Shown: piece after piece, positions 994 to 60,552 of the stretch
How positions within the stretch are numbered: the first letter of the stretch is position 1
Layout: each line of letters begins with the position of its first letter
DNA from: Paramacrobiotus metropolitanus
Lineage: Eukaryota; Tardigrada; Eutardigrada; Parachela; Macrobiotidae
Assembly (NCBI RefSeq): GCF_019649055.1
Contig: NW_026570450.1
Coordinates: 1-64,000, forward strand
DNA length: 64,000 nucleotides
Reading direction: 5' to 3'
The notes under the pieces: generated by a model
What the model was told of the DNA's origin: nothing
The model's input: the letters and a program-made list of their open reading frames with translations, nothing else
The model's database searches: none
Translations under genes and position numbers: made by a program

Positions 994-1283
994 ATATATG
1001 ATATATGTACATGAGATCATAGAAACGCTCTTTCGACTTTATATCCTAATTTGGAAGCAATAATCCCTGGTTGTAACCGTTAAAATTATGAATCGATATT
1101 GTATTCACATTACACATTAAAATTGTAGCACACTAATGTTAAGGGAATTTGGCTTGTACCGTAAATTTTTCCAGTAAAATGATAATATTATGAGCCGGTA
1201 ATAGTAAGTACATATATCTCATATGCTAAATCATTAAATTTAAACGAAAAATACAAGCTCTATCTGTACACAAATAATTCCCT

Positions 1284-2991
1284 TCATTTAGCACGCGCGC
1301 GAATCAGATAGCGAACGGTCAAAAACGGGGGCAAGTTATTGTGAGCCTGACCTCCTCCCACCGACAGACTGGTGACATCTTTCTGGCCACTGTATTGGCT
1401 GTCATCGCCGACTGAGGGCCAGTTGTGTATTACGTCCTCATAATATTGCGCTTCTTGAGACCACGCCGGAATGGTGTGACTGTGCACCGGCATTTCGTCC
1501 GCTGTCAAGACATGACTCTTCTCACCGCCGGCCACTCCAGTCAGCTGTACTAATGGATCACTCGAATTGATACCGATGGGAAATTTCCCTTGCAAATCCG
1601 GTGTGATGGTTCGCTGCAATACAGCCGCCAGAAGCGGGTATTCCCCGTTACTGAACTCCGCGCCGTTACACTCCAACCAGCAGTCAGGGACGTTGTAATC
1701 GCGATGATACGCTACTATTGTGCCCACAGGTACTAACGTCGAAACGGTGTAGGCTATCTGAGATAAATGTTCAGACGTCTGGTTCAAGCTGCGCTTCATC
1801 CGGTGGAGGTCGTCACCCAGCTGGTCTCGGTTAACGTTGTCAATATCTTTGTTTATAGCCGACGAAAGGTCAGCATGCATGGTTTGGACTGCTCCACACC
1901 GTGATCGAACCGAGGTTCTCGTTCCCGCGGATGGCGCTCATGTTGATACAGTGCAGTGTCATCGGTTTAATGACAAACTTATCGCCGTTCCAGTGCACGC
2001 TGCCGCCAGCTTCCTTCAGCTGATTGCGCACGGCACTCCAGTCCATCATTGGTTGTTCGCCTTGCAGCGGTCTGATGCCATCTATCGCAGTGAAATTACT
2101 GCCGATCTGGAAAAAGGCTTTCATCCACTTATTTCCGTTGCCCATTAGCTCGTTTAGGCTCTTGATCTTCTCGTCTGGACGGATCGCGCCGATAGGCCAG
2201 TACATTCTTCCACTGTTCCTCCGTGAAATCTGTGGTCGTAATTACACTCGGTTTAACGATTCGTTGGAAGCGGTTGACAGCGGTGAACAGCTGACTTTCG
2301 CCGACGAATTCATCATCCGGAATCGCTCCTTCAAGGAGATGGTCCAAGGTTTCTCTCAACAGCCGGCGCAAATCCGTTTGCTGCATACACATGGTCGGCG
2401 TTTCGGGAACGAAGCTGAAAATTTCCGACGCCTCAAACGCTGTGGTATTAAGAGCCACTTCCCGCTTCATGCGACCGGGCTTCGTTAGCGCAAACGACAC
2501 TTCGAGACCAAAGAGCAGCTGATCCTGAGGATTCTCCACTGCAGTTTTAATATCACTACACTCTTTTTCCGCCGAGCAGATGATACGTCCGAGGACAGTG
2601 GTCGGCTGATGCGGAATGGGGATCCATTGGTTCATGACCTTTACCGGCAGTGTACTGTCGATTAACTCCATGCGCATACTGTGGAATGGAATGGTGCGGA
2701 GATTCAGGGAGTTGGACAGCAGATCCATTTGTTTTAATTCTGTCTGGATATAATCTCGGTAACTTGCCTCCCAAAGTTGTAGCGCAAAGACTAAGTAGTT
2801 CTGATGGTTATTATAGACGACATAGGTAGAGTTGGGGACAAATGTACATGCTGGGGCGTAATAGTACGTCACGTTGGGCGAGCCGTTACTTTCTTTGTAA
2901 ATTCTTGCTTGGAAATTTCTGTACGGAATGCTTAGGTAAGCGGAGGAAAGGGCCACATTAGCGGAAGACGAATCGGATTCCAGTGATAATA
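1284..2991 (-). pseudogene. Tail-collar family secreted protein, frameshifted copy
   Basis: Read on the minus strand, three overlapping frames together match the intact paralogue at 29397-31405 from its N-terminal family domain through a phage-type tail-collar domain (PVGTIVAYH, CNG, TPDLQGKFPIG, GGEKSHVLTADEMPVHSH, NNLPPFL). One frame change falls near 2196-2200, beside the WKNV/YWP junction. A second falls near 1870-1880, in a CATGCATGC repeat. Each is equivalent to one extra base. A plausible phase-1 splice acceptor ends at 2992, but no first exon with a signal peptide could be found upstream. It is either a pseudogene or an assembly with two indel errors. The first is favoured because the start is also missing. 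Confidence 0.7.
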
Positions 2992-5303
2992 CTATCTCGA
3001 AAGAATAAAACAAATCAATTCCTGCATATATCCGGTAATCAGTGCACACTTTTTTTTGTAGCGGTACAGGTTGATGCAACGAATACGTAGGATGACTTAC
3101 TTATCGGCAGTTTGACAGATAATATTTTAATAGTCAACTCGGATGCTCTAAAATTGTGGTCTAATGATTATAATAATTTCAAGAATGTACATAATTCTGA
3201 GTGATTCAAATTCCAAATTATAAGCATACGGTATGTGAAAAGTATCGTGTATTTCTTTAATATAATTTTTTCCAAGATTTTATGAAGAACAATTCAGTAA
3301 GCAGGTTCAGAAATGAAGTGAATTTCATTAATTTCTATCATCGCTTGCAGATTTTGCTGATCAGATATAAATAAATAGTAGTAACAATTCAACTGTAAAC
3401 GGCCAGCTGTGACTAGTAATAATGTTTACATTAATTATCGTATTTAATCGCTTGTCACGTTTAAAGTCATTAGAACGTAGCAAAATACTTTCAGTGCACA
3501 GGACGGTATTTCTATATTCCAGGCAGACAATTAATTTAAAGGAAGACGACAGAATTATAATTACAAACGTCGTGAAACGACACGGTAACTCCACAATCAC
3601 TTTTTATCGACTTTTAGTATAAGGCCTTCTCAGACAGCTTAAATTAGGTCGATGTCAGTGTTTTATGTAGGGGCTCGGTTCTTTTACCAAACGTACCATT
3701 TTGTGGCAATATCATCCAACACATTAAACCTCCCAGTACAAATCCCAGCATTTTAAAAGATAGGATTATTGAAAAGCAAAACTGCGAAGTTGACACTCAT
3801 GAGCTTCTTCCCGGGTCTGGACGGTCCGAACAGACTGACAATATTTAAGTATCACCGTATGATCCTTACCAGATCGCCATAAACCATAAAGGATGACCTG
3901 TTCGAAAAATGATGTTGCGATATTATTTTATTGTAAGGCAACGAGACACAAAACCGACAGCTGCTATTCACGCGAAGCCAGCTGGCACACGTTAGTTAGC
4001 GTTATCTTTTGTTGACTACCGGTCATTACTTGCCAGTAGTACACTAGTAAGTATGTACGAGTATGTGTACATATGCAGTATTTCTCTGTAATTCAATATT
4101 ATTACTGTAAGAAACAGCCAAATCACGTTCCAAATCGCAACGCGTTGATTAGATTGAGATCGCTGGGAATTTCACATCAAGATTCCAACTTAAGTACATA
4201 CATCAGATCACGTACGCACTTCAGTTACCTACGTAAGTATTAAGTTACTGGCTCTTCCGCGCGCATCTTCGTCTAACTGTATCTGTGTCATTCGTGCCTT
4301 CACGATCCGTTTCGGTGTGGCTCTTGGGCCCTTGGCATAATATTATTTTTATTAAAACATTATGTAGATATTACCAAAATTAGCTCAGGCATCTAATTCA
4401 AAGTGACAGCTAATCTTAACCGTTTGTCTACAACCTCGTGCAGGAGCTAGTCCTGATTGTTGTAGACGTTAAGCTGATTAAACAATAAACAAACAAACAT
4501 ATAGACCACTATAAAAGCAAACGCTGTGTCGAATGTGAATCACGTCCGGTATTGACAGAGCACGATACCGATAACGCAAACCTGTTGGATGCAAACGCTT
4601 AACCGACGGTTATTACCACAAAGAACTGTTCATTAATTCAAAGCCGTGCTCCGATTAGGATAATGCCACCATCATAAAAATTACAGAACAGGGCAATTTT
4701 CAAGAAATTTTCATAAGGCAATTTTTTCATAAGAAATTTTCATAAGGCAATTTAGGCTTGAGAGAATTCATCGTACCCTACTCATTATATCTGTAGTACG
4801 TAGATATAAAACGATGCGCACGGGCGCGGATGCAGGGTCATAGGTTACCTGCGCTCTGCAGCGGCACTGTGCAAATCGCTGTGAATAACGTTTGTTTAAG
4901 GAAGTCGTATCACCGCGCTTAAAGGGCAAAGTGTTCTTCTCACAAGTTTATTGTCCTACTTATGATTCCACAATCGCCGGTTCGTGAAAATATCGTGACA
5001 AAATGTTGCTGGTTCTCCAATCAACAGCAAACACGATGAGCAAAAGGCAAAAACTACACAAAATTGTCAGATCGGATACAGTGCACTTTGGAGGAAAACA
5101 CAGCTGCACGTGATACACGACAAAACATCCAGTGTACGGACTATACCGGCATTTTACGGATGCCATCCGGTTGCGCAAAATACAGCCGCGGTACAAACCG
5201 GAAATGGTCACTTCGGACGCGCAAACGGGAAATGAGGCTTACGGATTATCAACTTCCATAACTGTCCTATTAATCTAAAAATAAGTTTGTTCGGTGATCA
5301 TAT
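2992..5303. other. Intergenic region, no gene seen
   Basis: No supported exon. A hairpin with 9-base perfect arms lies at 4425-4433 and 4459-4467. A short direct duplication containing AAATTTTCATAAGGCAATTT lies at about 4695-4755. A possible signal-peptide-like frame near 3600 on the minus strand starts with GTG and has no good splice donor, so it was not called as the missing first exon of the neighbouring collar gene. Confidence 0.4.
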
Positions 5304-5398: not shown

Positions 5399-8300
5399 AT
5401 GTCTCCTTTTTCAGTATGTTTGTTTGCGATAATGGTTGGGCATGCGTTGTGCACATCCTTTCCCAAATGTACCTTCCTCTTTGAAGGCGGCACGTGTGAC
5501 TGTTCCGGTCGACCGCAGAACATGATGGACTGGAATCTCCTGCTAAAGAACACTTTTCCCAACACTACCATGATTAATTTTGACAGCACCGGACTGACGC
5601 ATCTGCCGGATTCCAAGGGCATCGCACTGGCATTTCCAAAATTAGGTACAGAATTCTCATGAATATGTTGAACTATATTGAATATATGTTTTCATAAATA
5701 TTATCAAGAACATTTTTACATAATTACGTAAGTTGAAATATCTGTTTTAGAATTATCTATTCAAGTACAGATAACACGATATTTAGTACACAGAAATATG
5801 TAGTATATTGTTTAATGCTTAACTAAGCGAATGTTGGTGCACATGTTTCGTATTGCGTCGTGAAATTAAGGTAAAACACCTCGCGAAATACATCGTAGTA
5901 GCACATCGTGAAATTAATTACTTAATTTAATACAGACTAATATTGTAATTTTATTAGCGGCGGATGATTTGCTTGTTATCCTTTCATCTAAAAAGCATTA
6001 GAATTTAGCATGAATCGAAGCATTAGCATTCAAACATTAGCATGAATGTTGTTGTTGTATAGAAACGATCATTGTGGATTACAAAATGGATTGCTTATAC
6101 TTGCGCTTATGGATCAAGGAATTCCAGTGTAATCCCAAGCGGACCATCAGCATCGTATCGCAGTACTGCTCCGACCTGACCACCAATCCCATCTGCCCGG
6201 CGCCGGCAGCAGCCGTCCCAGACCCCAGTCCGAAAGATATCCTACCCACTACCACTGATAACGGCAAGTGCAAGAAGCCACCGTGTAAAGAAGGTAATCA
6301 TTCTGTCACGAAAGGGCATATTTATACTATTACTGATTTCATGGACCTTCGTGAACAGAAGTAAGTCAATTGTGCATACAAATTACTGTGCATACCAAAT
6401 TATTGTGCAAACATAATTTGGTAATTAGAAGCGCACGAGTCAGCCGAAATACTGTAGTTATGCTCGTAGTATCAATTCAAATTCAGTGCACCGTACGCAC
6501 ATTTTACACGAAGTTGCAATGGGAATGCCGTTTCGTACTTAATGTTAAAATCTGTTATAAATCTACATAGTAAGTCATTATTGCATTATAAATGAAAGTT
6601 TTTCTTTTCGTGCTGATTGATACTTTTTCAAATGTGTTGCATGAAGCTTAAAGTAGACCCCAGTAAACCAGGAAGCACATATCTCGCAAAAAAACTTTTA
6701 TACTGATGCTTTTTTCTTCGTATCTTCAAAAATACTAATGCATTTGTCTCGTACGTTACAGTATTACAAGTATTTCCAGTCTCTTATACACAAAACTAAG
6801 GATCTATGTTGGAACTTGGAATTATAGGATTATATAAATTCGTGTTCTTGACTACAGAGTACTGTAACCTGTAGTTTTCGTTTCTAGAGTGAAATGCGTA
6901 AGCAAAGCCGCCCAGATCTCCAGTTTTGTAGTATTATTTTCCGACTTCTTAATATTTTGCTGTCATGACGCAAAACTGACTCTTATAATCATGAGAAAAG
7001 TATGGTCGTTGATTCATGGGCCTTGACTTTCGGCCAACTACCCGCTTGTACAGAGTACGTACCAAAACATATGACATCACCATTTCAACATCTAATCAAT
7101 TCTGTGCTGTGTTTTGCAGATAAGCCACACACCATTGACCTTTCCAAGTCGCTTCTCACGGTGCCCGTGCGTAACTTCCAGACCCGCATCTTCAAGGATA
7201 CCGCTGACGATAAGAGCGATCAGTACTATCACACCACTGCTTGCACCCTCTACCCAAACTCCTCCCAGATCTTGCTCAACAACGACACCCACGAGCACTT
7301 TGTCCTCATCGTCCTGCGCTTATGGGACACCGATTACCTACAAACCGTGCAACGGCTGCTGTCCGAAAAACTCCAGCAGAACATCACCAACATCCAGCTT
7401 ATTCCGTTTCACAGTCTACGGGTGTTCTTTGTGGACAATCCCTACTCGTTCCAAGTGATGGACCAATGGGTGACGATCATCGATAAACCAGCGGAAATTT
7501 TAATTCAGCTGATATGTAATAGTGTCAGTCATTGTCAGTATATAAAGTCCTTCGTCTACGCACATCCGGTATATTTCGCATCGACCCTGGGTGTGACCTT
7601 TTCCTTAAGTAAACCCTCCCGGACGAAAACGACGGTGAGCGTCCTACGGGAACACCTCTGGACGTCGCGTCTGTACGAAACCGTAGTGCAGCGTCACGGC
7701 CACGCCTCCAAAGTGTGCATGCAGGAACAGGACATCCGGCAGATCCTCCACGAAGCCCTCCAGAACGCTCTGGACGCCACGCTCCCCGACGACGAATTCG
7801 TCAGTGAAGACCAGATGTTCGCGTTGGTCGGAGACCTCTTCCGCAGCCTCCGCCCCAAAGTAACCAACACCCGGAATTTCAACGAGGAAGCCTGGAAGGG
7901 CGTCTTCTGGAAGGACGAGCACAACCGGCCGGATGAGAAATTCCAGTCTATGCTCAGCGCGCTGGGACCGCAGAGTAAACTGGGACAGGCGCTGAAGAAC
8001 ATGTTCCGCCACGGAACCGATTTCACCGGACTGGATACACTGAAAATCACCACGGATACACAGTCACAGATGGACCTGAACTCGGTGGTCTTCCAGATGA
8101 AGGAGACGCCCAGTGGGCTGCTGAACTGGAATGGCCATGCGTTCGTGACGAAGCCGGTGACGCTGTACTGTCTGAATCTGACGGTGTGGCAGAATCAGAC
8201 GGTGGTGGGGAACGTGACGGTGGTCAGTCGGCCTAAGTACGGGGATCTGTCGGGCACGGTGAATGTGCTGCCCATGGTGTATAAGCCGGAGGAGGGTAAG

Positions 8301-8399
8301 CATGATGCGTATAAGGTGAAGAAAGAGAAAGACCACGATGCCGGTCAGTCGGGTAGTAATCCGGTGCCGTCGTTGGCACCCTGGAGTCGGTATTCATGA
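5399..8399 (+). CDS. Secreted LRR-like plus collar-family protein without collar domain
   Basis: Three exons (5399-5645, 6063-6293, 7120-8399) join through two phase-1 GT-AG introns into one 585-residue frame. Residues 1 to about 18 form a signal peptide. The first two exons give a Cys-containing, leucine-rich segment (CDCSG, MINFDSTGLTHLP) followed by a Pro/Thr linker with CKKPPC. The third exon carries the family domain shared with the 29397 and 1284 genes: TVPVRNFQTRIF, ACTLYPNS, VCMQEQDIR, DDEFVSEDQMF, LYCLNLT. It diverges just after GDLSGTVNVLP, exactly where its relatives continue into the tail-collar domain, and ends instead in a charged tail. Function is unknown; an extracellular binding role is inference. 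Polyadenylation signals follow at 8565 and 8656. Confidence 0.8.
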
Positions 8400-17593: not shown

Positions 17594-19257
17594 TGCATCG
17601 GCGGTGTCCCATTCGTGATGGTGACCTTTTACTATCGCCGCAAGTTGGTCTCGCCCATCAACATCATCCTACGAAATGTGTCGCTTGCGTTTTTTTTAGT
17701 TAGAAGCGCTTGCTGTCGGACTATCGATGCTCGGGTTTTCCACGTGTCAGCAGATTGCCCCGGGCAATCTGCCTGACATCTCGCTCATTTGTTTATATCG
17801 TGCGTTTCTTTCGAAGAGTGATAGTATTGTTGCCACTTTGCGCATCGTGTTTATCCAGCTGTACCGGGCGTTTGGTGAAGTGCCATGGAGGCTGTTGATC
17901 GCTTCATCTGGACCTTGACTTTGAGGGAGTGGGGAACACGGTACTACATGAAACGGCCTTCTTGGACGATTATGTGCTACGTTTAAGCATCCCTGGCGCT
18001 TATTGCTTGCCAGGTTTCTTGACGTCAGATCTGACTTATCAGAACCGAACTGTGTCTCGCGATGTTGTACGACGCAGTCCTCAGAATAAATGCACCTGCC
18101 AAATCGCAAAGGCCCTACATAGATACTAGTTTGCCGCATTTCCGGGATCGGAAGCGAAAGCAGTAAATATTGGACAAATGGCACCGGTTGTAGATACAAG
18201 CGCTGCGAGTAGGATGTTTAGGAACATTATCTTACACCACTTAATAGGGATACGCTTTAAATTTGTGAGAAAATCAATTATTTTAATACGAGTATACCGA
18301 GTATCAATATTCAACGTGCCGCCACATTCTACCACTCTGTTCTATTGTTATTTATGGAAAAACTTAAAATCGGATCAGAAGCCTTTCGTATTTGCGCAAT
18401 TATGTATCTGATATATGTATAGCAAAGCAGTGCGTAAATTTCGTTAAACGTTTCTTGCTGTTGTAGTAACTGGGTCTGGAACCGATTATGCACTTTATAT
18501 AGCTAATAAAGTTATCGCTGCTAAACATAACGAGATTTTCGAAAAAATCGGCGATTACTGTACAAATTTCCTCAGCCGGCGCACGTCATTCCTTTGGTGA
18601 TTTCACATATCGACCAAGTGGGCATTCATTTGTACTCATTTTTCTGGCTACTGTACGCAAGTGATACCAGAGTTCGCTCTACTTTATGAGTCATAAGACT
18701 GTGCGTGCGATTTTAGTAAGATTGTTTTCAGTGGCAACCGTTAACCCTCAAGCCGGTTTTCAAGGCAATGCAGTAGACAGTAGTGCGCGACGGTAAAACC
18801 GAGTGTACGTCTGTACGGTATCTATAAATGTTGCTGCAATCAGTCGCTGCCTTTTAATACCGAGTGATGTATTGATTTTTCCGCAGACAGCCTGTGCAAG
18901 CGTGGTATGGGTTCAAACGCTGCACTTCCGGTCGCAAACTAACGTAAGCAGCAGCGTTTTGGAGAGCTCATAAACACGAAGATAACTGTATACCACTTAT
19001 ACTGATCTACAGTTTTACATGCTGATTTAATTATTTAAGCGTCCTAACCAATCTCATCAACAACACCTTCTGATCCGCTTATCGTTATAAAATGCCGACA
19101 AAAGCCCAGTAAAATACATTCGCGTGAAACCCCTACTGCATCCTGCGCAACTTTATTTTAATCCTCCGCTTGATCGTGCAAAATACTTCTAGTGTGCTTG
19201 GGCGGATTTCGAACTAGCGCTACGAAAAAGAGAATCCGGATTTGCAGAATATTAATT
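17594..19257. other. Divergent intergenic region
   Basis: Lies between the start of the minus-strand XK-like gene and the start of the first TMEM151-like gene, so it should hold both promoters. TATAAAA at 19086-19092 is a candidate TATA box, 166 bases before the ATG at 19258. Open frames here overlap one another in several directions and look like chance. Confidence 0.4.
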
Positions 19258-25352: not shown

Positions 25353-28300
25353 ATGTTTATTACATTATTATTCGTGCCATTACACCTTACTTTAGCGAAT
25401 GCAATCGGGGAGTCGCTTTTGAATCTGCCATCAGGCAAGTTCATCCTCCAAGTGCTCTCCAGATGTATGCGATCAAGTTTAATATATGGAAAAAAAGGTT
25501 GTTTTTAGCTGCAAGAGATTCGCCGGAAAGCGATAGAAATTCGTACTTCAACGACATCATCTGGAATGATGAAGATGACGGAGAACTGCACCAATACGCC
25601 AATGCCACCGGATATCTTCCAGTGGAAAATTATTGGCCCAATAACGGAAAAAATATTCCTTATGCCATCGAAGGGTTCAGTCAGTTTTCTGTGCTGGCTC
25701 GCACTGCTATACATTTATGTATTTCCTGGGATTTAAACCGGTAATTATAACCGTTTTGACAGGTCCGGAACAGAAACAAGTAATCAAGAAAGCTCTGCGC
25801 ATAATTGAATGGCGAACCAGCTTGTGCATCACTTTCAAAAAGCGCAAACAAGAACGGGAATATATACAATTCTATCCGGGAAGGAGGTACTGCAGTATTA
25901 GCAGTTTTGTAAAATGCTTTTTATATGTAAATGTTTACGCCGTAAATCGTGTAGTTGCAAAGCGCACATTGGGTACGTTTTCGGACACGCTGCCAAAGTA
26001 CAGCTGCACACGGACTGCTTCTCATCCGGCATTATCCAGCACGAAATCCTGCACACGCTAGGTATGTTCCACGAACATAACCGGCCCGACCGCGACCAGT
26101 ACATCTCCCTGATCGAACACAACATTCGCACCGACCTGGATAAACGGAACTATGAGATCCTGCCGCGCATGGCCACATACGGCATGCCGTATGATGTAGA
26201 CTCGATTATGCATTATGGGAACGGTGTGGAAATTTCCAAGAAAGGCCGAACAGCTATTGTAGCCAAAGTGCCATCCGACAACATGGGACAGCGGAAGGGT
26301 TTAAGTGTTTTGGATGTGGCTAAGCTGCAGAAAGCCTATCGGTGTTCACTGGACGATGGTGCATTTGAAGGACGACTGTTGGAACGCATGTTGGATTTGA
26401 ATTCGGATCTTACTCCAGGTTAGTCGAAAAGCTGCCACAGTAATCGCAGCAAAGGAAACGATAATCAAATTAAAAGCCAATGTCTTTTTTGCTAATGCTA
26501 ACTGCAGCCCCAAAGTCCGGGAAATTAGAATTTTGCTATCGGACATCGTATAACGTCTTCTTAAGACTTTTCGTTTTTTCTTGTTTTCTTTACTTTTGGT
26601 AAACACTCACCTTTAGTCGCTAAATCACTTTACCTTTAGTAAAGTTTTTTAAAAATCTTTTAGCTAAATTGTTGATTTTTTTAAACGAGAATTTCATAAT
26701 TGTCTATGTGAGAGCACTTCAAAGAAACATGACGTTTTTTTAGGTGAAGGGACGGTGATGTTGGAGCCGTTTCCGCAGTTCTCCAGAGAACCAATGGCAC
26801 GCGAGCACTGTGCCCTCCAGTTTACAACCAACTGTCGACCATCGTGGCCATCCACACCCAGCAACTGCACTCACACACAGAGCCTAGATATTACCTGCAA
26901 TAACCTGGCACGCGCGCATGAACTCCGGCAAATGACCGCATCTATGTCGTCATTTCCGTTAAAAGCCACAAAAATCGATGTGTACGACGGCGGCCAAATT
27001 AACGTCGACTCTTTTGCTGCCATTCGAAAGCAAGTTGTGGTCTTCGATTTACGCAACTGTACGAACGAAACAGCCACGCAAAAGCTGCTGACCATGCAGT
27101 TTACGAATTTGCTGGATTTTGGTCTAATTAATTGTTATAATTTGGAGATCAGACGTCTCGACTTCAGCTTATCAAATAAGCTGAAGATGATTGCGTTCTC
27201 CAACGTGACAATCCAGCAACTGGAAAGGGATACATTTACCGATCTCCCGGCTTTACGCTTGCTGTCATTAGAATATGGACTAAACAACATGGAAAATTTT
27301 AACAAGCCTCTACGCGAATATTTGAACCGCCTTCATTGTAGCTGCGAGTTCAAATGGTACCGGCAGTGGTGGAGTAGCAACCGGCAACTGTTGCGAGTGG
27401 CGGCCGAGGGTGAAATTTATCGAACCGCTAATTCGTGGGGAAATGTTGCAATTAGTAAGGAAATGCTGTACCTACCGATTGACTGCGATGCGGTGTCGTT
27501 TCCATCAGGCCCAGCTTCCATTAACCATTCGCAGTATGGATTTTCAATCAATGCACCGAACTGTGAGTATTCTACTTTGCATTCAAACTGAAAACATGAG
27601 ATACCGTAATTGAAGCGTTTGTATAGGCGTTCATCATTCGAAATCGTTCGGTTTTACAATCGTTTTTCAATTTCTTCGATCTTAATAATCGCAAGTTGAC
27701 AAAAAATATTTTTAAGCCACAACTTCTTCAGTGTTATGTTAGTATTTCTATAAAGCTCACAAAACATTCATTAACAAACACATATGTGCGTGCGGTTAAC
27801 TGGAAAGCGCGCCAACAGCAGTTGCACTACGAAAATCAGTTAAAGCATTGGAACTTTTTGAACTCTGATTATGGTTAAAGGATTTGCAACCCATACACCT
27901 ACGTGTATTACAGCGATTTAAATTCTGCTTTTAGATGCCTTAGAAGGAAAGCTCAGCTGCACATCCGAAAGTGGAGAATCCGATGAACCCTTCCCGGATT
28001 TTTCTACTGAACCGTTAACCAAAGAACAGTGTGACCTCCAGTTTAGCACCCACTGCGCCCCGTACGGCGGCAAACGATTCAACTATTGTGGGACTTCCGC
28101 TGGCATGGCAATCGTTTGCGGCCGGCAAGCAGATGCACAAGAAATTCGGCAGATAACTTCGAACATGGCTAAATTCCTTCCGCGGGCAACCTTGCTAGAT
28201 TTGTATGACGGATCGCATCTATCCTTCGGGACATTCTCCCCAATCCGCAGACAAATTGTGCTGCTCGGTTTATTCCAGTGCATCGCTGCTCGATCCACTG

Positions 28301-28794
28301 GCAAACTTAAAGAAATGCGCTTAATGAATTTGCTACAGTACGGATTGTACAACTGCTATAATCTACAAATCCTCAAGGATGATTTCAAGTATTCCACGAA
28401 ATTAAGGGTCATCGAAATGAGGAACTCAACAATCCGGACGTTAGAAAGCGATACATTCACGAGTTTGCTATCCTTGCGAATTTTGGCTTTGGAATTGGGG
28501 TTGAAGGACGCTACTGTTTATAACAGAGATATTCAAAACTATTTGTACCGGTTGCACTGTTCATGTGAATTTGCCCCATTTCGGCACTGGAGAAAGAATA
28601 ACAGCAGGCTACTGGATCACGCTGAGGATAAGGAAGTTTATGTGATCCCGCGCGCTGTCGGTAGTTTACAGTACTCACGAGCTGACATGTACTTGCCGGT
28701 TAACTGCGCAATGAATCCATTTCCTTTCGGAGTTGGCTCCATAAATTTTAGCCAGAGCGAATTTTCGTTGCATGATGACAATCGTTACTGCTGA
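25353..28794 (+). CDS. Secreted astacin metalloprotease fused to two LRR modules
   Basis: Six exons (25353-25434, 25509-25679, 25763-25886, 25955-26418, 26744-27562, 27935-28794) join into 839 residues. A signal peptide is followed by a short propeptide and an astacin (M12A) domain. The zinc site HEILHTLGMFHE is at about residues 155-166, then NRPDRD, and the Met-turn SIMHYG at about 209-214. At residue 281 a phase-1 junction starts the first of two related modules (281-553 and 554-839). Each opens with FPxF and Cys motifs, has leucine-rich repeats ending FTDLPALRLLSLE or FTSLLSLRILALE, and a Cys-containing C-cap (LHCSCEF). Usual astacin partners such as EGF or CUB are absent. Intron 1 is GC-AG (CAG/GCAAGT). 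The catalytic residues look complete. A secreted protease targeted by LRR binding is inference. Confidence 0.85.
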
Positions 28795-29396: not shown

Positions 29397-31405
29397 ATGG
29401 ACGCCAGAATAGTAAGCAGAATGCTGATTGGCGTAACCTTTGGAGTGATCGCGTTGCAACAGCTGGAAGCTACCGACCACCGTAAGTAAAAGTTTTTTAG
29501 ATTACAAGTACTGCAAAAAGCTTGCAAACGCGCTAGCATAATGAAATTTTACTAGTTCAGCATTTATGTGAAATATTCACAAGACTTATATCTGAAAACT
29601 TATACCAGACGGTCTCGTTCTGTAAAAGCGCAAAACAGAGCCTTATGACGTATTGCTGAATTGGTCAAAAATTAAACTGCAATCGTAAACTTGCAGAAAT
29701 CGGCCAGATGGCTGTGGATTTATTTTTGCCGGTAATAACGGTTCCATACAGCAACGTCCAAATAACTATCTTCAAAAGCCCAGCGGCCATTTATTACTAC
29801 GCTCCCGCATGCGCCTTAGTGCCTAATTCCACCTATGTATTCTCCAGTGTGAACTCGCATCAGAATTTTGTCGTCTTTTCCGTGAAGCTTCGCGATGCGC
29901 AGTACCAAGAATACCTGGAGGCCGAAACATCGCTGCGGCTACACGAAACCATCAACCGGACCAATCTGCAGATGATCCCATTCCAAAGCATGCGCTTCGA
30001 TTCCACGGATACATTCTCCAGATTAGCGATATCCAATCAGTGGATCTCGGTGGGCCATCAACCCGGTATCGTTCTCGGCCGTATCATGTGCTCGACCAAT
30101 AAAGAATGCAACGCAGTCAAAAAATCTTTGGACGATCCCAACCAGCAGAACCACATCTTTGCCAATATGGAAGTCACCTTCGCTCTGAAAAAACCCTTAC
30201 AGATGCGGAAGCGCGTGACGTTGACCACCGCTTTTGAGCACTCTTCACTGTTCGGTTCAATGGAGCAGCGTTTCTCGCAGGCTACCGATTCAACGGTCTG
30301 CATGCAGGAATCCGTTCTGCGCAGTATGATGCGAGAAGTACTGAACGGGATTTTTGAAAACCAGTTAGCGCATGATGAATTTGTTAGCGAAGACCAGATG
30401 CACAAAGCGGTCAGTCACGCCGTGCGCATGGTTAAACCAAATATCACGTCCACGGATTCGTTTCGGTCTGAAGATTGGCTGAAAACGTTCTGGCCGAGGG
30501 TCACCGACCGCCCGGACGAAAGAGCCAAAAACCTGAACGCCCGTGTCGGTGGCGACAAGACCTGGATGAAGGCCCTGTTCAAACCGGGAAGCAGTTATAA
30601 AGCCATGGAGCCGGCTCGTTCGGGGCTGGACTCGCAGTCACAAATGGATTGGAGCGTTATTGCATCGCAGCTAGAAGAAGCCGATGGGTTGGTTCAGTGG
30701 AACGGCGAGTCGTTTGTCACCACACCGATAACGTTGTACTGCATCAACTTAACGTGGTTACTGACCGCGGAGAAAATTCTAGGGAATATTACCATCCTGA
30801 CCAGCGTCAAATCGGGAGACTTGACGTCAGCTGTGAATATTCCGGCAGCTGCGTCTATCGACAAATTTGTGCAGCCGTGGAAGCGGGAGACGGAGCGATG
30901 GGAGCAGGCAGAGAAGCGCATGCTGGAGATGAGAAACTCGGTTACAAACTTGGTACCGGTTGGGTCTATCATAGCGCACTACCGCAATGACAGTCTACCG
31001 GAATGCTGGTTGTATTGTAATGGCAGCAGCTTTAACGATTCACTCTATCCGTTATTAGCCAGTTTCTTACCAAACAATACCACGCCAGATTTCAGAGGGC
31101 GGATTCCGGTGGGAACGGGTGCGGTTTATAGTAAGGAGATCGGATTAACTGGTGGAGAAGCTAATCATACGCTGACGGTGGACCAACTGCCTCCTCATCA
31201 ACATCGCGTTAACGTTACCGGGACTAACAACTACAGTGATGGGATTTACAGACTTTACAATTCATACGTAACCGGTTACCGGGATAACAGCGACAGAAAT
31301 GGAGCGTCTCATGGAACTCTTCTTACGGAACCAGTTGGGAAGGGACAAGCATTCAACAATCTACAACCGTTCTTAACAACATCGTTCATTATTCGCGCTT
31401 GTTGA
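29397..31405 (+). CDS. Secreted protein with C-terminal phage-type tail-collar domain
   Basis: Exons 29397-29481 and 29697-31405 join in phase 1 into 597 residues. The first exon encodes a signal peptide (MLIGVTFGVIALQQLEA). The family domain follows, with ITVPYSNVQITIF, ACALVPNSTYV, VCMQESVLRSMMREVL and DEFVSEDQM, and many N-glycosylation sites. A short helical linker precedes the last ~150 residues, which match the phage tail-collar fold: VPVGSIIAHYRN, PECWLYCNGSSF, YPLLASFLP, TPDFRGRIPVGTG, GGEANHTLTVDQLPPHQH, then AFNNLQPFLTTSFIIRA. In phages this domain sits in tail-fibre proteins that contact host surfaces. Here it is in an intron-bearing secreted animal gene with two relatives in the window. 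Origin by transfer is inference. A polyadenylation signal lies at about 31799. Confidence 0.85.
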
Positions 31406-32147: not shown

Positions 32148-33911
32148 CTGGATTCTGTAGAGAGCGAAAATGTTTCTTGTGACCTTGTTAATTTTTCGTT
32201 AGATTCTGATTTGTTAACTCGCTGTTCTCTAACAAAGTCGTTTGCTAAATGGGTCAGCGCACTGGGCGATGATCCAGATGCAGACTTTATTTTAAATGGC
32301 ATTGCTTACGGATTCAGGTTGGTGCCCGATTTGTCTCTTGTTTCGCCAGTAGACTGTCCCAATTATCGCAGTGCGCTAGATCCCGTTGCCAACGCGGAAC
32401 TGAATAAGCTCTTTCTCGAAGAGTTAGAACAGGGCCGTATAATGGAACAGGACATGAAGCCTCTGCGCATTCAGTCAATAGGCGCCGTTCCCAAGAAGGG
32501 CAGTAGTTCATATAGGCCAATCACTGATTGCAGCAGGCCAGTTGATTGTTCTCTGAATTCATTTACTCAGTCTGAGACGTTCGCCTTTGAATCTATTGAT
32601 AACGTTTTGGAATTTAGCACACCTAACTGCTACTATGCGGTAGTGGACATAAAAGCAGCATATAGGTCAGTTCCTGTATATCCACCGCACAGGCAGTTGC
32701 AAGGTTTCTGATGGTCCTTCGCCGGAAGACCGCCAGATGTTTATTATGTTGATTGTTTTCTCTGTTTTGGCCTTTCTAACGCACCATCGATTTTTCAAAG
32801 GATCTCTACTGCTATTGCTAGAATTTTGAAAAAGCGCGGGAGGAAAGTGGTTGTTTATTTGGATGACTTTCTTGTTAAAGGCGACACTTTTGAAGAATGT
32901 GAAGCCATAAAACAAGAACTCATTAATTTGTTAATTTTACTCGGTTTCTTCGTTAACTGGGAAAAAGTGCAAGGGCCGACACAAATCATCACCTTTCTAG
33001 GTGTTGTTATTGATTCAGTCAGACAGCGTCTTCTGTTGCCTGATGATAAAATTAATGAGCTTGTCGCACTTGCACATAATCTCAGTGAGCGGAAAAAAGT
33101 TACGAAACGTGAAATTCAAAGTTTTGCGGGGAAAACGGCATTTGCCGCAAGGGCACTGTACGGTGCGCGTACGTTCTCCCGCATATTTATCGACTGCGTT
33201 TGTGTATTAAAGCAGCCAACCGATCGAATGCGAATTACAGATAAGTTGCGCAATGAACTAAAATGGTGGACAATTTTTGCGCCAACCATGAATGGTTTAT
33301 GCATGCATCGTTTTTCGTGCGAGCGCACAGTTAAAACCGTAACCACAGATGCTTCGTTTTCGGGATTTGGTGGGTGCACACAAGGAACCTGGCTGGCAGG
33401 AACTTGGGATGACTCCCGGAGTGTGCCGCCGGGGTTCACACAGAATTGGGTGCCGTCACCTGAGTTGCACAGCGCGCTTGTTCGAAACATTAACTTTTTA
33501 GAATTAATTGCTGTTTGTATTTGTTTAGTTGTGTTTGCGCCGCTGCTGCAGGGATGTAAAGTAATCGTTAAATCTGACAATACGCAGACAGTGGCCTTTA
33601 TAAACCGTGGAACTACAAAAAGCGCCCCTGCCTTGCAGTGGCTTAAACTGGTACTGTTCGCCAGTATACAGTTCAATTTCCGTGTGTTTGCGGTACACTC
33701 GGCGGGAGCACAGAATGTAGTGGCAGACGCCCTCAGTCGCCTGACAGAAAGTGTAAATTTTAGTAAAATTCTTTTTGAAAATGTTAATTTTTTATTTCCT
33801 GGGACACGCTTACCGATCGGTTCGTTTTGCAGCTACCCAGTTAAAGGCACTGGAAAGCGAGCTGACGAATTTACGCCATGGTGCAATGGCGCCAAGTACC
33901 AGGAACACTAG
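32148..33911 (+). pseudogene. pol: Reverse transcriptase and RNase H of the DIRS-like element
   Basis: One frame with an internal TGA at 32709-32711. RT motifs are clear: SYRPITDCSRPVD, then YYAVVDIKAAYRSVPV with the catalytic Asp, then FGLSNAPSIFQR, YLDDF (the YxDD box) and TFLGVVIDS. RNase H follows with TTDASFSGFGG, ELIAVCICL, KSDNTQTVAFINRG and HSAGAQNVVADALSR. The stop replaces one codon between GF and WSF, just before the downstream RT motifs, so it would truncate the enzyme unless read through. The 3' end overlaps the recombinase frame by 137 bases. Confidence 0.8.
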
Positions 33912-34800
33912 AATGTCCCAATGGAAGCGGTTTATTTTATTTTGCGACGAATTTTCTTTAAATAACTTGCCAGCAGAGGAGTATACTGTTGCCCTTTATA
34001 TAGCTTACCTTGCACGCACACTTGAATATAATACTATTCTTAACTACGTGTTTTCGCTCTCATCTTATCACCAAATAAATAACTTCGTCTCGCCCGACTT
34101 GAATAATTTTCTGATCAAGCAAGCGTTAGCAGGTGTACAACGGTCACGTTATAAACACCCAAACAAACGCGCACCAATTACGCTTGAGCCTTTGTACTCT
34201 ATTAATTCCCACGTTGGTTGTCTTCCAAATAAATACAGAACAACATTTTGGGCTGCCTGTTTAGTCGCCTTTTTCAGCATGTTACGCAGCTCAAATTTGT
34301 TTTTTAATGACACCGGCATGCATTTAAAAGTTTCTGACGTTACGCTTCGCCCATGTTCTCTTGTGCTCTCTGTGAATGTACTTAAAACAGCCCGCCATCT
34401 TTCGGAGCGTATTTCGGTTCCGATACCGCGCTTAGCAAAAGGTCACGCTTTGTGCCCTTACCGTGCTATTAGGGACATGCTGGCCAAAAGCAAAGCTAGT
34501 GGTGATGATGCTTTGTTCAGTTATTGTGTTGACGAAATTGTTATGCCCCTCTCCAGTTGCAGGTTCAATGAATTACTACGGCTTGCCCTATCCTCCGCCT
34601 CCATACCCGCCAAGAAGTTTTCCGCGCACAGTTTTCGCGGTGGCGCCGCCACATATGCCGCCGAGCTGGCCATTCCCTCCGATGCACTAAAGGCACAAGG
34701 GAATTGGAAAAGCCAGTGTTTTGAAACTTACATTCAACGGACAGACGCCCTTCGTCGCGACTTCGCTACTCTCATAGCCAGTGGCGTTAACTCCTCCTAG
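33775..34800 (+). CDS. Tyrosine recombinase of the DIRS-like element
   Basis: 341 residues, uninterrupted. An N-terminal SAM-like DNA-binding region (STRNTRMSQWKRFILFCDEF, EYTVALYIAYLA) is followed by the catalytic domain: the first Arg in SMLRSSNLFF, HSFRGGAATYAAE giving the HxxR pair, and the nucleophile Tyr in CFETYIQR near the C terminus. It would cut and join circular retrotransposon cDNA at its insertion site. It overlaps the end of the RT/RNase H frame. The intact frame contrasts with the interrupted polyprotein upstream, suggesting recent decay. Confidence 0.85.
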   Translation: MKMLIFYFLGHAYRSVRFAATQLKALESELTNLRHGAMAPSTRNTRMSQWKRFILFCDEFSLNNLPAEEYTVALYIAYLARTLEYNTILNYVFSLSSYHQINNFVSPDLNNFLIKQALAGVQRSRYKHPNKRAPITLEPLYSINSHVGCLPNKYRTTFWAACLVAFFSMLRSSNLFFNDTGMHLKVSDVTLRPCSLVLSVNVLKTARHLSERISVPIPRLAKGHALCPYRAIRDMLAKSKASGDDALFSYCVDEIVMPLSSCRFNELLRLALSSASIPAKKFSAHSFRGGAATYAAELAIPSDALKAQGNWKSQCFETYIQRTDALRRDFATLIASGVNSS

Positions 34801-34880: not shown

Positions 34881-35390
34881 CCCCCTTTTACATAGTTATG
34901 TGTTGTGTTTAAGCGCGATACCACAAGTACAAATAATATGTTGAAACTGGAGGAGGTACAGTGAATATGGGCTCTCGAACATGGTGAACTACAGTATATA
35001 ATATACAGTAGCTGCAGGGCAGAACGACATGTAGAGTTCAGTACGCAGAAAATTGCAGATGTCGGCATCAGTATGGCTGCTGTGAATTTACCTATGAGCT
35101 GCAGTCCAAAAACCATACAACTGTGTGGTTTTGTAGAAGTACACGTACGTACTCGAACGCGTAATGCATGAGTTGAATTGCCGCAAAAACTTCCGTAAAA
35201 ACAACACCTTGTGGCTTGTGGCAACATAATTGCGCCCTGAAGCAAATTACATTTCACACAAGTATCAGCAACGCCAGAAACGATGTAAGGGAAGAACGCA
35301 GGAAGCGGCTAGTACGTGCTATAGTGCAGAAAAGGTTTCAGATTCAAAAGAAAATGAATACAGCGTGAAAGTTTAGCCAGCTTTTTTAAA
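34881..35390. other. Intergenic region, no feature seen
   Basis: Lies between the retrotransposon and the second XK-like gene and should hold that gene's promoter. No clear signal was found. Confidence 0.3.
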
Positions 35391-38389
35391 ATGCGCATTT
35401 CAAATTATTTATTGTGTACCATTTGCAGCAAGATTCCTCATTGGCTGCTTGGCCTACAGAATCCCACGGAAACCAAAGTTGTTACGGTTATCGTATCTTT
35501 CGGAATTTTCACAATTTTTTCTGATGATACTTGACATGCTGTCCGACTGTTGGGATATCTACAATATGTGGAAAGCCAATCCATACAAAATAATATTTAA
35601 ATGGCAGATTCTCATTTCCACAGTACTCGGTCTACCGGTTCTGGCATCGCTAGTTCGCGCGTTCCTTCTTGCACGCTTGCGGAGCGCACCGAATGTCCGA
35701 ACGAACTGGGGGAATACTACGGATCGACTGATCAGGAATGAAGAAAAAGTACTGGTGTTTTCGGAAGCTGCAACGGTGAACCGTGGTATCAAGGCTTGCG
35801 GACAGAGCTGCCAGACTGCAGCATTTTTCCAATCTTTTTGGGAAATATACCCATTAAGTGTCATAAGCAGGCAAGTTAGTTTAGTCGAAGCTTGTACTGT
35901 ATGCTTGCCTGGCCAATAATGTACCAACTGTAGCTACTAGCTATTCTCGCATTTTGCAGTCGCTCGTACCGTTGACTGATTCTTTCATGTACATGTACAG
36001 TGTATATACAAATTACTTGTACAAATTACTTATACACACAGACCTGCGCCTTATACAGTTATGCATGAAGAAGTAGTCCGTATTCACTCAATTATTCGTG
36101 TTACTCTTCGATGCCAATAAATTGTTCACGTAGATGTTGGACGTTTTGGACCGTATGGAAAAACCAGAAAAACAACCCTGAGGAGTTTCTACATTCATAC
36201 AATTATAAAAAGGATCCTAAATTCCAGCTTCTTCTCCTGCAAAAAGCTCAGCTTGATGAAATTAAATTCGAAGCCGCACCGCAGCTGGTCATTCAGTTAT
36301 TATTAGGCGCTTCAATCTGGGTGGCCACTCAGACGGCCCCGCCCGTTTGGAAATGGGGTGTCCTATTCCTCTCGTTCTTGTCCATCTCCAAATATTTTCC
36401 CTCTGTCAACCATTTGCCGGGAATCTGTGCATTCAACAACTGCATCTACGTCGAAAAGGATTATATCGAATGGAAGGAGCTGGTTGCGATGCTGAAACCA
36501 AATATCTATATCTACAGCGGAGCCTTTAGAAATTTTATTTACATCGTGTGCCGGTACAACCTGGTGGTGGCGTTGTGGTTGTACAACTGGCCGGCACTTG
36601 TGTATGTGACGGGGTTTCAAATGATCGTCATTGCGGCCGTTTTGTGTGCGTTGCACAAAAAGGAGTTTCATGAGGACAGCGAACCGTACGTCATGGCGAA
36701 CGGTATGGCCTTCTGTGCCGAATGGTTGTACGTGGTGGGCAACTTTCTGGTGACCCCGATTGCCACGACTATGACGAACCTCGGCATTCTTCTGGCTTTA
36801 TTTTGCAGGCGTGCAATTTCGTGGTGTACGCTGTTTTGTTTAAATTAGGATGGGGCCATCAAACCAGTGCAGTCCACATATCGGCCGATGTGGCTGAAGA
36901 CCACACGGTTTCTCTGCAACAGAACAGAGACTCGGATCGTGAATTTTATTTTATGGTGATATTTAATACCATAACCCTCATATCACTGCCCCTGCTATTG
37001 CTACTTATGGAGTGCTGCTGGAAACGTATGGATCAGTGGAGTCACTTCGACAATTGTGAACTCTGTAAAGGTGCGTAAGGCCGTCCGCTGGAGGCAGTTA
37101 ACGTTATGTTAAGTAATCAGTGGTTGACCGTATCGAGCCTCAGATGGGATTAGTACGGGTAGACCCTTCTTTACCAAACTCCAGGAACAAGCAGATGCAC
37201 TAACGTGATGAACAGGCTATAAAACAAGGTTAAACGAATTACGAATATTAGTTCAGTTTGCTTGAGAAAGTCTCTATTTATACCGTACTTCGGTAACTTC
37301 GCGTGGCTTTCTCCCATTACACAAGTTTTTAGCGTTCTTGTGTTTGCCATCTGCAATGCAGCGATCCCATATGGACGCAGTTTTGAGGGAATTTCTTGTG
37401 CTGCAGGTTTTCGTGCTCAGTTCTGTCAGTATCGGCCGTGCTGGTTGTGTGAATGGACTTATTGCCATGATCATCCTCTAGAGCAAAGTAAGATCCAGCG
37501 TAAGATACCTTTTATGAGGCCGTTTACACGGCAAGATGTGGATGATGTTGATTTTCCTGAACGGCGAAGCAATGAGGAAGGCGTGCAACTGCTCCCGAAT
37601 TCTACATACTCCAGCATATGTAAAATCTTGAAAATGCTTGGAGATGTACAGGTTACCGACGATGAGGACTTTCTACTGTGCCGAGGTCATTATAGGCACC
37701 TGCAACAATTGAAAAGCGCAAATTTAACAACGACCGTTAACGATAGCTACCGGTTTGATAACGCAAGTGTGGTGCTGGCAAATGTGCAAATAGATCACTC
37801 ACGGGGAAGTAAAGTTATGGAGTTAAGAAAGAATGGTGAGGAGGAACCTTGGAAGTTTAGGCTGGACCCTTTGGATATGTACAATTTTTTAGTTACGCTG
37901 TACTCGAATGAGCAACTATTGAACGCGCACATACCATATCAGTTGTTATTTAAGGCCCACGCTTACACGCAGGGTATTACAGCTGCTGTTTGCCAGAATG
38001 AGTGCTGGCGTCTTGTCAAACGGCTTCGGAAGGAGCATGTGTCCTGTTCAAAAGTCGCTTGCTGCTTATTTGTGCGCCCTGTTGACGAACTGATTGCACT
38101 GTTGCCGGCGCGGCTCGAGTTCCATCCTGTCTGCAGTCTAGAATACAAAACCCTGCTTGTTCAAGGAATTCTTCCTCCCAGCTCGGAGCTGACCCGGTTT
38201 GATTCATTCTACATGGATCGGCCGGGGATAGATCATAGAGCACTGGGGTATTTCGAAATAAAAACGGACGAAATGGATCTGGATACGGATCGCAGCATAG
38301 GCGAGATCATCAATGAAATTAGAAGGTTTCCACGCAGAATAGTATGTCCTTTGGAGCAAGTCTCAGCAAGAGAACGACAACCAGTTTAA
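35391..38389 (+). pseudogene. XK-related-like membrane protein, copy 2, with two indels
   Basis: Exons 35391-35870, 36134-37070 and 37407-38389 mirror the minus-strand gene at 14595-17593 in order, phase and sequence (DMLSDCWDIYNMW, EIKFEAAPQLVIQLLL, and the C-x2-C-x7-C-x4-C-x2-C tail cluster in CELC...YRPCWLCEW). Two single-base indels break the frame: one extra T in the run at 35515-35520, and one missing base in the TTTATTTTG run near 36800-36804. Both are in T runs, so sequencing error is a real alternative to pseudogenisation. Intron 1 is GC-AG (CAG/GCAAGT). The third exon is fully open for 328 codons and splice sites are intact, which argues for a functional or very recently broken gene. 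Confidence 0.7.
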
Positions 38390-58396: not shown

Positions 58397-60552
58397 ATGG
58401 TGAAAATCACGGTGTCGTTGCGATTGTTAATTTTGCTAGTCGGACTGCAGTTATTAAGGAATTGCGCTGCAGGTCAGTCATGAACACGTATCGATGTTAA
58501 ATTTACTCGCACTACATATTGAATACTGGCACCGCGACATTTCGCCGCCGACAACTCGTCGCAGGACTTTTGGTCGCTGAGATTTCGCCGCAAGGTCATC
58601 ACGCCCTGCGACGTTTCGTCGCCGGACATTTAACCGGCAGGACATTACGCCGCGAGACATTTCGTCGTCCGGCCGTTTCGATGCCGAGACATTTCGCCGC
58701 AGGGCTGTTTTGACGAAAAGTCCATTTTAGCAGGAAAACATTTAAAATACGAAGGTTAAGAACCATAAGAAAACCTTAAGAAAACTAAGAATAACCTAAG
58801 AATATGTAACCTCAGAATAACCTAAGAATACCCTAAGAATGACCTAAGAAACCTAAGAATAACCTAAGAAACCTGAGAATAGCCTAAGAATAACCTAAGA
58901 CTAACCTAAGAATATCCTTAGAAGAACTTAAGAAGCCCAAAAGACTTAAGAAAACCTCCCAAGAAACCCGGAAAACCTGCAAAATTAAGCGTGTCGAATG
59001 CTTTTGCGGCGAAGTGTCCGCGACCAGAGTACGTCTTGCGTCAGAATGTCGCAAAGTCAAAATGTTTCAATGCTAATTGTCCCTAACCGAAGTGTCCCAG
59101 CGTCAAAATGTCCCGCGGCGAAATTTCTTCGCGGCGAAAAGTCGTGCGTCGAATTTAATTGCGGCGAAATGTCACACTCCCAAATGTCCGGGTGCGTGAA
59201 TACTACTGATGCAGTCGCAACGAAAGGTTGAATTTTGTCAGCGTACGACTGATATTCGCGTTTTGTCGTAGCTGAAGGAGACTTCCCTGTATTTGAGGGG
59301 CGGCCTATTAGTGAAGCAGAATGCAACAACTTACCGAAAAACAACTGCTGGAAAGGGATGGTGAACTGTCGTGTATCGTATGCAAAACTGAAGAGGGTGA
59401 TAGGAAGTGTCATGACATTGGAGTGCTACGGAAATGCAACTGATCGGGTAAGGCGTACGTTACAAAGCGTGATGGAATTTTCAAAATGCAAAATCGTCTG
59501 CCAGCTCTGCCTGGTCTTTAAGCTATCTATGCAAGCTATGTATACGTATTGTACACGACGCTACGCATATTTCAAAATATACTGTATTATTTTGAATTGT
59601 AGTATGAAATACGATGAATATATCAAAACATTAAGGAGTCTATCAAAATTTATTGTATGATGATCCTTATTACAATCTATGACTAGAAACTTTCTCTTGA
59701 GAACTTTTTGTTATCCACATGGGCGTAGCCAAAGAACGTGCCTTGTGTACAGGTAGCAAATGCAAATCTGCTACCAAGTTTCCTTGACCGCTTGTATTGT
59801 AAAAATATTACTGATAGCGCCTGTTATTCATTTAAATTGTTAGACCGCAGACATTGTATTAAAAGATATACGGCGTGATGACCATTGACCAATGACCTTT
59901 TGTATTTGTACAGGAGTATCTGGACACAACCACAAGTATTTCCCTCTCTAACCGAAACCGCGCAGTTGAAGCGTTCTACAGCGAAAAGTTCGATTCTTAC
60001 AAACTGTCTTCAGAAGCTGTCGCACCCATCCAGAAGCAAATCATTGAGTTGCATTTTCTGAATTGCAAAGACCAGTCAAGTACATCCCGCATTGGCGCAC
60101 TACCCTTGTCGAATCTTTTGGCTCTACAAATTTTCAGCTGCAATAACTTGATTGTTAAGAAAAATGACTTTGCGCCTTTTAAACATATTAAATTCCTGGA
60201 TTTCTTCCTGACATCCTTCGCATCCATCGAGCCGAATACGTTTACAGACCTCCCTCAGCTGAAGTCGCTCTTACTGGAGGCAGAGTCGAAGGCAGAGATA
60301 GCGGCCATCCGCAAGATCCACTGTGACTGCGATTACGCCTGGCTGCGCAACTGGCTGGATGCCAATCCGCATCTGCTCAGCGATCGGGACGAGGGCGAGT
60401 TGTACATCATCGGCAACCACCTGAGCAAACGCGTTTTCAGGTCGACAGCATTTTATGCTGTTGACTGCGCCTTGCCGACATTGTTCATCGCGAATGCGGA
60501 CTATGACTATAACAACGCTCTCAAGTTTTCTATTAACGTTGCATGCAAATAA
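58397..60552 (+). CDS. Small secreted LRR protein, intact copy
   Basis: Exons 58397-58472, 59272-59447 and 59914-60552 join in phases 1 and 0 into 296 residues. Exon 1 is a signal peptide (SLRLLILLVGLQLL). Exon 2 opens EGDFPVFEGR and has cysteines in ECNNLPKNNCW, NCRVSY and LECYG, matching the start of each LRR module in the astacin-LRR protein. Exon 3 holds leucine-rich repeats (LSNLLALQIFSCNNL, FKHIKFLDFF, FTDLPQLKSLLLE) and a Cys C-cap (IHCDCDYAWLRNWLD, then YAVDC and a final Cys). No membrane anchor is visible. Intron 1 carries a foldback repeat. It is the only complete member among four small-LRR relics in the window, so it probably represents the functional gene. A binding role is inference. 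Confidence 0.85.
58530..59200. repeat. Foldback repeat inside intron 1 of the LRR gene
   Basis: The left arm (about 58540-58700) is a degenerate tandem of GACATTTCGCCGC-type units, and the right arm (about 58985-59185) has the reverse complement GCGGCGAAATGTC. Between them, 58765-58960 is a tandem of CCTAAGAATAA-type units. No coding frame makes sense. It fills most of the 799-base intron. Confidence 0.75.

Follow-up and report, generated by a model that had tools for sequence, protein, structure and literature searches.

The closest described systems are the tips of the T4 tail fibre proteins gp12 and gp37, in which a collar fold at the end of the fibre is combined with an HxH site. The HxH sites of gp37 are described as iron sites and that of gp12 as a zinc site (PMC6116203), and a second paper divides the gp37 collar into two separated stretches with the receptor-binding part in between (PMC12724248). 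When produced as a recombinant protein, T4 gp12 assembles into trimers and binds LPS, and it reduced LPS responses in mice (PMC4943950). Outside phages and bacteria, collar proteins are carried by virophages and a giant-virus relative (PMC3671162, PMC12724248), and a secreted protein of Plasmodiophora brassicae represents a eukaryotic carrier (PMC9530463). In the literature searched, that is, titles and the starts of abstracts, mostly from beyond subscription journals, no collar domain was reported in animals and we did not meet a phage receptor-binding tip serving as a diversified, secreted animal family. InterPro holds collar entries of other eukaryotes.

Gene transfer into animals is known mainly for enzymes and toxins. 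Bacteriophage lysozyme genes have reportedly been co-opted by bivalves; these are likewise phage genes in animal genomes, but they encode an enzyme and not a receptor-binding tip. Genes that combine animal with transferred sequence already form a recognised class, as exemplified by the arthropod HGT-chimeras, in which an animal gene is likewise fused in frame with non-animal sequence (PMC13389597); no word beginning with "collar" or "phage" occurs in the main text of that paper. What sets the tardigrade chimera presented here apart is that it forms a large family whose tip has been diversified and exchanged.

The window analysed, meaning the whole stretch of 64,000 nucleotides from contig NW_026570450.1 (C230 below) of the tardigrade Paramacrobiotus metropolitanus, contains gene A and two paralogues (Table 1). 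The family is like T4 gp12 and gp37 in its collar fold and HxH site, but differs from them in being encoded by an animal, in possessing a preceding N-domain, a signal-like exon, introns and, in 18 copies, a cysteine pair, and in belonging to no phage particle. With the bacterial and phage proteins that combine PF07484 and PF21939, about 150 residues can be aligned and the PxHxH and NN.PP motifs are common to both, whereas the N-domain, the introns and the cysteine pair of the 18 copies are additions of the animal proteins.

Table 1. Positions of gene A, its parts and its two paralogues within the window.
Feature	Position	Strand	Basis or remark
Gene A	29397-31405	+	597 residues; Paramacrobiotus metropolitanus NW_026570450.1 window
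Gene A exon 1, 85 nt (MDARIVSRMLIGVTFGVIALQQLEATDH), encoding a signal-like peptide (MDARIVSRMLIGVTFGVIALQQLEA...)	29397..29481	+	sequence and translation
Gene A predicted intron, GT-AG, 215 bases, phase 1	29482..29696	+	gtaagt donor, ttgcag acceptor, frame retained
Gene A exon 2, single open frame with N-domain, helix and collar	29697..31405	+	translation
Gene A N-domain	29729..30841	+	no Pfam, PDB-sequence or viral-contig relative found
Gene A predicted helix, 34 residues, preceding the collar	30845..30946	+	model residues 383-416, block pLDDT 63-90
Gene A phage-type collar/tail-fibre tip, PF07484 then PF21939, residues 448-597	30953..31402	+	
Gene A cysteine 5' of the conserved Trp (CWLxC), pair member 1	31004..31006	+	
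Gene A HxH motif (HQH)	31196..31204	+	family profile puts the site on HKH of T4 gp12
Gene A variable stretch, HxH to NNLQPF (tip region)	31205..31336	+	high entropy, low pLDDT
Gene A C-terminal cysteine, pair member 2	31400..31402	+	
Gene B, paralogue with N-domain and collar (31.5 bits)	1287..3100	-	
Gene C, N-domain paralogue, no collar detected	6969..8396	+	

We confirmed that the C-terminus of gene A is a phage-type collar, as a preliminary description of this DNA had proposed. Both Pfam models exceeded their cut-offs, Collar (PF07484) with 27.4 bits (cut-off 24) and Gp10_C (PF21939) with 27.9 bits (cut-off 27), and 19 PHROGs families matched at E ≤0.01 (best 1e-14), 16 of them in the category tail. 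Single-copy Pfam scans of some paralogues were below cut-off (Collar 21.4 for L015, Gp10_C 20.3 for L023 and 23.6 for L028). Run against solved sequences, the collar profile gave 11 matches at E ≤10. Nine of these are tail fibres, one is the bacterial C24 protein 6ov6, and the last is unrelated (E 2.1). The E-values included 3.3e-13 for 9nxk, 9.8e-11 for 9cuy and, for gp12, 5.9e-6 (1pdi) and 1.2e-5 (1ocy); in the profile alignment to 1pdi the PxHxH of the family lands on HKH.

Structure prediction likewise returned the collar fold. The mature gene A protein was modelled as a monomer from an alignment with 57 partners, taken from the window paralogues and from related loci, giving a mean pLDDT of 59.7 with blocks of 89-97 (residues 421-470), 63-71 (481-510, which includes the HxH at 500-502) and 44-60 (511-550). 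The top ranks in Foldseek were the T4 gp37 (E 1.1e-3) and gp12 (E 1.3e-3) tips, both with probability 1.00, and no match of this model had E ≤0.001. VIA-align gave Z 10.3 for gp37 (2xgf, 104 residues aligned, 22%), 8.6 for gp12 (1ocy, 80 aligned) and 8.1 for 8kec (77 aligned), where a Z of 7-8 may reflect a common arrangement. Heptads before the collar beat shuffled sequences in 9 of 25 copies, gene A not being among these (p 0.854, not significant), and the Trimer_CC score of L015, 20.0 bits, lies below the cut-off of 27.

That the collar is joined, in an animal gene with introns, to a domain of secreted appearance is supported; this fusion was one of the points that the preliminary description had called unusual. 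Gene A has N-domain, helix and collar in a single open frame, and an N-domain goes with the collar at 30 of the 33 places compared (28 regions plus the window, with two overlap pairs counted on both contigs). At L019, L025 and L037 no N-domain was found beside the collar within the bases taken around each. The intron and the signal-like peptide of gene A, and hence its secretion, are predicted from sequence; in a rough scan that had no control, the top-ranked first exon was signal-like and ended in a phase-1 junction in 8 of 13 family genes, gene A included.

The N-domain proved as unfamiliar as had been claimed. It matched no Pfam family (best E 0.05 among six members), a single-sequence search of PDB sequences found no relative, and none of its 38 pattern hits in the viral contigs was confirmed. 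The N-domain profile retrieved two designed repeat proteins from the PDB (E 0.005 and 7.1), no stretch passing alone, and four proteins scanned against NCBIfam had no match at E 0.01. A fold search with a low-confidence model (mean pLDDT near 60) yielded no clear match, the best Z being 5.0. The attempt to name the fold by Pfam, PDB sequence or fold match therefore failed, which is not evidence of a new fold. Among the material searched (assembly, viral contigs and Pfam), the N-domain occurs only in this genome. In a side observation, the N-domain frame of L055 (317-1915, minus strand) continues into a P-loop-like GSTGAGKTTLINGLFN stretch with weak matches only, and the junction may be an intron or the border of an adjacent gene.

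The preliminary description had spoken of a small paralogous family. The copies are indeed paralogous, but the family is not small. The Pfam collar model found 28 stretches in the 169.8-Mb assembly, all 28 above cut-off, and the collar of gene A as query found 37 collar-coding stretches. These amount to about 35 collar places, broken ones counted, once pieces and contig overlaps are merged: the two stretches on C54 are one place, the pairs C230/C260 and C319/C94 each represent the same stretch, and C15 was found by Pfam only. For the comparisons we took 28 collar regions; four places that were weak or broken, two of them on C63 and the others on C60 and C135, were omitted. The N-domain query matched at least 90 stretches (100 of 116 candidates scored). 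Among 18 further N-domain regions of about 3 kb, from which distant exons may escape, one shows a collar, namely L049, which is a flank of the L028 gene. The collar place on contig C15 (L037:489-1304, minus strand) codes in a single frame for a separate protein that has a probable membrane helix and whose collar is limited to the first half (43.1 bits); it is without the N-domain and resembles bacterial collars more.

The reading frame of gene B shifts twice at the end of its contig. The left ends of C230 (window 1-2252) and of C260 (1-2085, L011) overlap head to head with 97-98% identity and differ mostly by small indels, and over its part C260 contains gene B as a single frame. Since the differences in the overlap are mostly small indels, the frame breaks of gene B are probably assembly errors, and we doubt that it is a pseudogene. 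C230 and C260 probably lie next to each other, with the cluster of collar genes running on into C260 by two more genes. Broken frames in gene B and some other copies are what might be expected if the whole family were an artefact, that is, bacterial contamination, chance similarity or dead pseudogenes. However, the contigs that carry copies reach lengths of 3.2 Mb, most copies have an N-domain beside them, the collar scaffold is under purifying selection (see below), and C260 shows none of the gene B breaks where it coincides with C230. Contamination and chance similarity were rejected on the fusion, the many contigs and the selection, and given also the number of copies an artefact of any of these kinds is scarcely credible for the family.

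Conservation was assessed in 26 full-length collars, which are the 30 animal rows minus the truncated L021, L032 and L035 and minus L011_2, which is the gene B locus. Both PxHxH and NN.PP are retained in all 26; among the 159 bacterial and viral rows of the matches listed, they occur in 158 and 123, respectively. A cysteine stands directly before the conserved tryptophan (CW) in 18 of the 26, of which 17 terminate in cysteine, and the 18th (gene B) does so in the overlapping C260. Seven copies have GW instead and all end without cysteine. The remaining copy, L014_388, is out of frame just upstream of this site and has the C-terminal cysteine. The pattern at this site was matched in 117 of the 159 bacterial and viral rows of the matches listed, none of them with the cysteine. 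In an animal-only collar tree CW and GW form one supported split (98/96), and because of this the covariation of the cysteines represents one or a few events. The two cysteines, residues 18 and 150 of the collar, may form a disulphide. Sequons reached 1.39 times the shuffled mean in the animal collars (9 of 500 shuffles attained this) and 0.85 times in 135 prokaryotic and viral collars of the matches listed; the excess would match the expectation for secreted proteins. The cysteine pair, together with the variable tip, the tip swap and the Link siblings described below, goes beyond the preliminary description.

The part of the collar that follows the HxH site is the most variable one. Mean column entropy over collar residues 85-128 was 3.03, compared with 1.06-1.81 in the four other segments (27 rows). 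Of 23 pairs with more than 50% identity, that of gene B and L011_2 is one locus twice and was not used; 13 pairs gave both dN/dS values. In these, dN/dS was 0.07-0.27 in the scaffold, indicating purifying selection, and 0.36-0.88 in the variable stretch, which was higher in 13 of 13 pairs, although the pairs are non-independent (two are one comparison made via both gene B contigs) and dS exceeds 1 in several. Positive selection was sought, and no variable-stretch dN/dS above 1 was found in the 13 pairs. The tips of phages may vary likewise.

Tips can also be exchanged. The N-domain of L015 is 79.1% and 80.2% identical to those of L023 and L030, but its collar only 34.4% and 35.2%; L023 and L030 are 85.3% identical to each other in the N-domain and 67.9% in the collar. 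The similarity of L015 to its siblings drops within the coil past SELSSRINILPSAS. Forcing the collars of the three together cost 27.5 log-likelihood units (p-AU 0.0045), the group having been defined after the trees were viewed, which is a bias toward rejection. Judged from these comparisons, L015 carries a swapped tip. The same combination of N-domain and collar is present on C319 and C94, which are 98.7% alike over 3.5 kb, and the two copies may be one locus.

A different kind of replacement was found among the siblings that have longer C-termini. In three of the seven scanned, a Link domain (PF00193), which is a ligand-binding type of domain, scored above the cut-off of 27 bits (L039 37.0, L040 34.7 and L042 29.8). 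This means that collar and Link take the same place on the N-domain scaffold: where the Link-domain siblings end in Link, gene A and others end in a phage-type module. The L039 protein also contains low-complexity KDKGK and T-rich stretches. An N-domain tree was built from 45 genes, without L011a, L021 and L029, which are duplicates or too short. It requires five changes of the collar label, four of them forced, where genes labelled as having none may hide collar exons. Since collars stand on both sides of the midpoint root, we infer an old fusion followed by several losses or replacements, the position of that root not being fixed. One clean fusion would be too simple unless several losses or exchanges occurred.

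The main rival to a recognition or adhesion role is that the collar is a passive, purely structural or adhesive element, which would do no more than cap and trimerise the end of a protein secreted into a matrix, cuticle or egg coat, with an unconstrained tip. The variable-stretch dN/dS, which stays under 1 wherever a pair gave a value, is compatible with such a cap, as is the finding that collars are missing or replaced in several N-domain branches. However, HxH and NN.PP are retained in all 26 full-length copies, three siblings have a module of a ligand-binding type in that position, and the exchanged tip of L015 better fits selection for tip variety. We regard the passive cap as rather doubtful; judged from their anatomy, the proteins most likely serve in recognition or adhesion, either in soluble form or bound to a matrix.

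Where the collar came from was addressed with phage, bacterial and viral relatives. Collar relatives were found in 332 of 50,697 phage records; the bacterial collar loci used were the best 80 of 483 confirmed and the viral contigs the best 80 of 415. The closest bacterial collar among the matches listed belongs to a Saprospiraceae MAG (L057, 38%, E 1e-24 among candidates). The 159 bacterial and viral rows were reduced to 135 by a length and coverage filter and to 82 by clustering, and a quick tree of these with the 27 animal rows (109 rows) requires two changes of the animal label. In a careful collar tree of 79 rows, 30 having been removed by hand from the 109, a branch supported at 44/73 separates the 27 animal rows from the bacterial and viral rows. 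Three Bacteroidota rows and one viral contig make up the adjoining branch, where the order is unsupported (25/11), and the collar tree does not resolve the donor. The phylogeny that the preliminary description had called for, here with bacterial and viral rows, gave a common side for the animal rows, but neither firm support nor a donor. Its proposal of horizontal acquisition still appears the most likely reading, since the domain is phage or bacterial in the collections searched and the animal rows share one branch side, although the uniting branch is weak and absent from the quick tree.

Introns bear on the same question. In 24 of 26 full-length copies a single frame covers the collar from close to its beginning as far as the end, and in several copies introns occur inside the N-domain or in the interval between N-domain and collar. 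The collar of L014_388 begins late, after a frame change. That of L028 (plus strand) is split by a 97-base GT-AG phase-1 intron (2254-2350), and no such intron is visible in the other full-length copies. We abandoned the statement that no collar is split by an intron; with it one argument for transfer is removed, and vertical descent gains slightly in likelihood. The idea that the CW and GW groups share an ancestral intron near N-domain position 250 was also dropped, the sites being about five codons apart. The L028 intron is what might be expected if the collars were an old eukaryotic family that descended vertically, with no transfer into this animal line, and the same can be said of the divergence of the copies (30-48% collar identity to gene A in the 11 other copies compared) and of the domain in a second eukaryote, P. 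brassicae (PMC9530463). Against vertical descent stand the domain being phage or bacterial in the collections searched, the single-frame collars of most full-length copies, and a literature naming the domain in whose titles and abstract starts no animal case appears; we consider it unlikely. Instead of a phage or bacterium, the donor might have been a DNA virus of eukaryotes, such as a virophage, a polinton-like virus or a giant virus, given the virophage and giant-virus collar proteins cited above, but the N-domain is without a relative among the viral contigs scanned, and we consider such a donor quite improbable.

We therefore propose, with a probability of roughly 60%, that a captured phage or bacterial tail-fibre tip gave rise to a secreted, probably trimeric animal family for recognition or adhesion. 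A tip comprising the collar and the receptor-binding head would have entered the animal genome and become fused in frame behind the secreted N-domain, and the fusion gene would have multiplied to about thirty copies. Each protein would be secreted and probably form a trimer via the collar and, in some copies, also via a coiled coil. By analogy with the phage tips, a metal ion would be held at the HxH site, and the variable stretch would be presented so as to bind a ligand on a surface, for which a glycan of microbial or extracellular origin is the likeliest candidate. A role in defence or adhesion is presumed. The tips would diverge fastest in the variable stretch and be exchangeable between paralogues, and one branch of the family would carry a Link domain in the position of the collar.

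A more far-reaching version, which we put forward only tentatively, is that phage host-range machinery was adopted as an animal recognition repertoire: a secreted family recognising bacteria, with tips diversified in the receptor-binding stretch and swapped as cassettes, and with collar and Link as alternative modules on one scaffold. A phage receptor-binding tip turned into a diversified, secreted animal family with exchanged tips would in any case show that animals can adopt the means with which phages discriminate between bacteria. The family is a directly testable candidate for a class of innate recognition proteins that would be new, and it offers glycan binders that nature has already fitted for secretion.

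The window contains further genes. About 740 bases downstream of gene A lies a retroelement (32148-34800, plus strand), in which RVT_1 scored 49.1 bits within 32712-33908 and 16.3 bits, below cut-off, within 32148-32708; the open frame after the reverse transcriptase has no Pfam match and looks similar to a tyrosine recombinase, as in DIRS-type elements. Two related genes for multi-spanning membrane proteins stand in opposite orientation (15979-17668, minus strand, and 35377-36848, plus strand); they had no Pfam match in the two pieces scanned and appear XK-related. Related proteins with weak leucine-rich-repeat matches under cut-off are encoded at 26668-28794 and 59896-60552 (plus strand), and CBM_14, astacin and serpin genes, which fit an ecdysozoan animal, are present according to Pfam.
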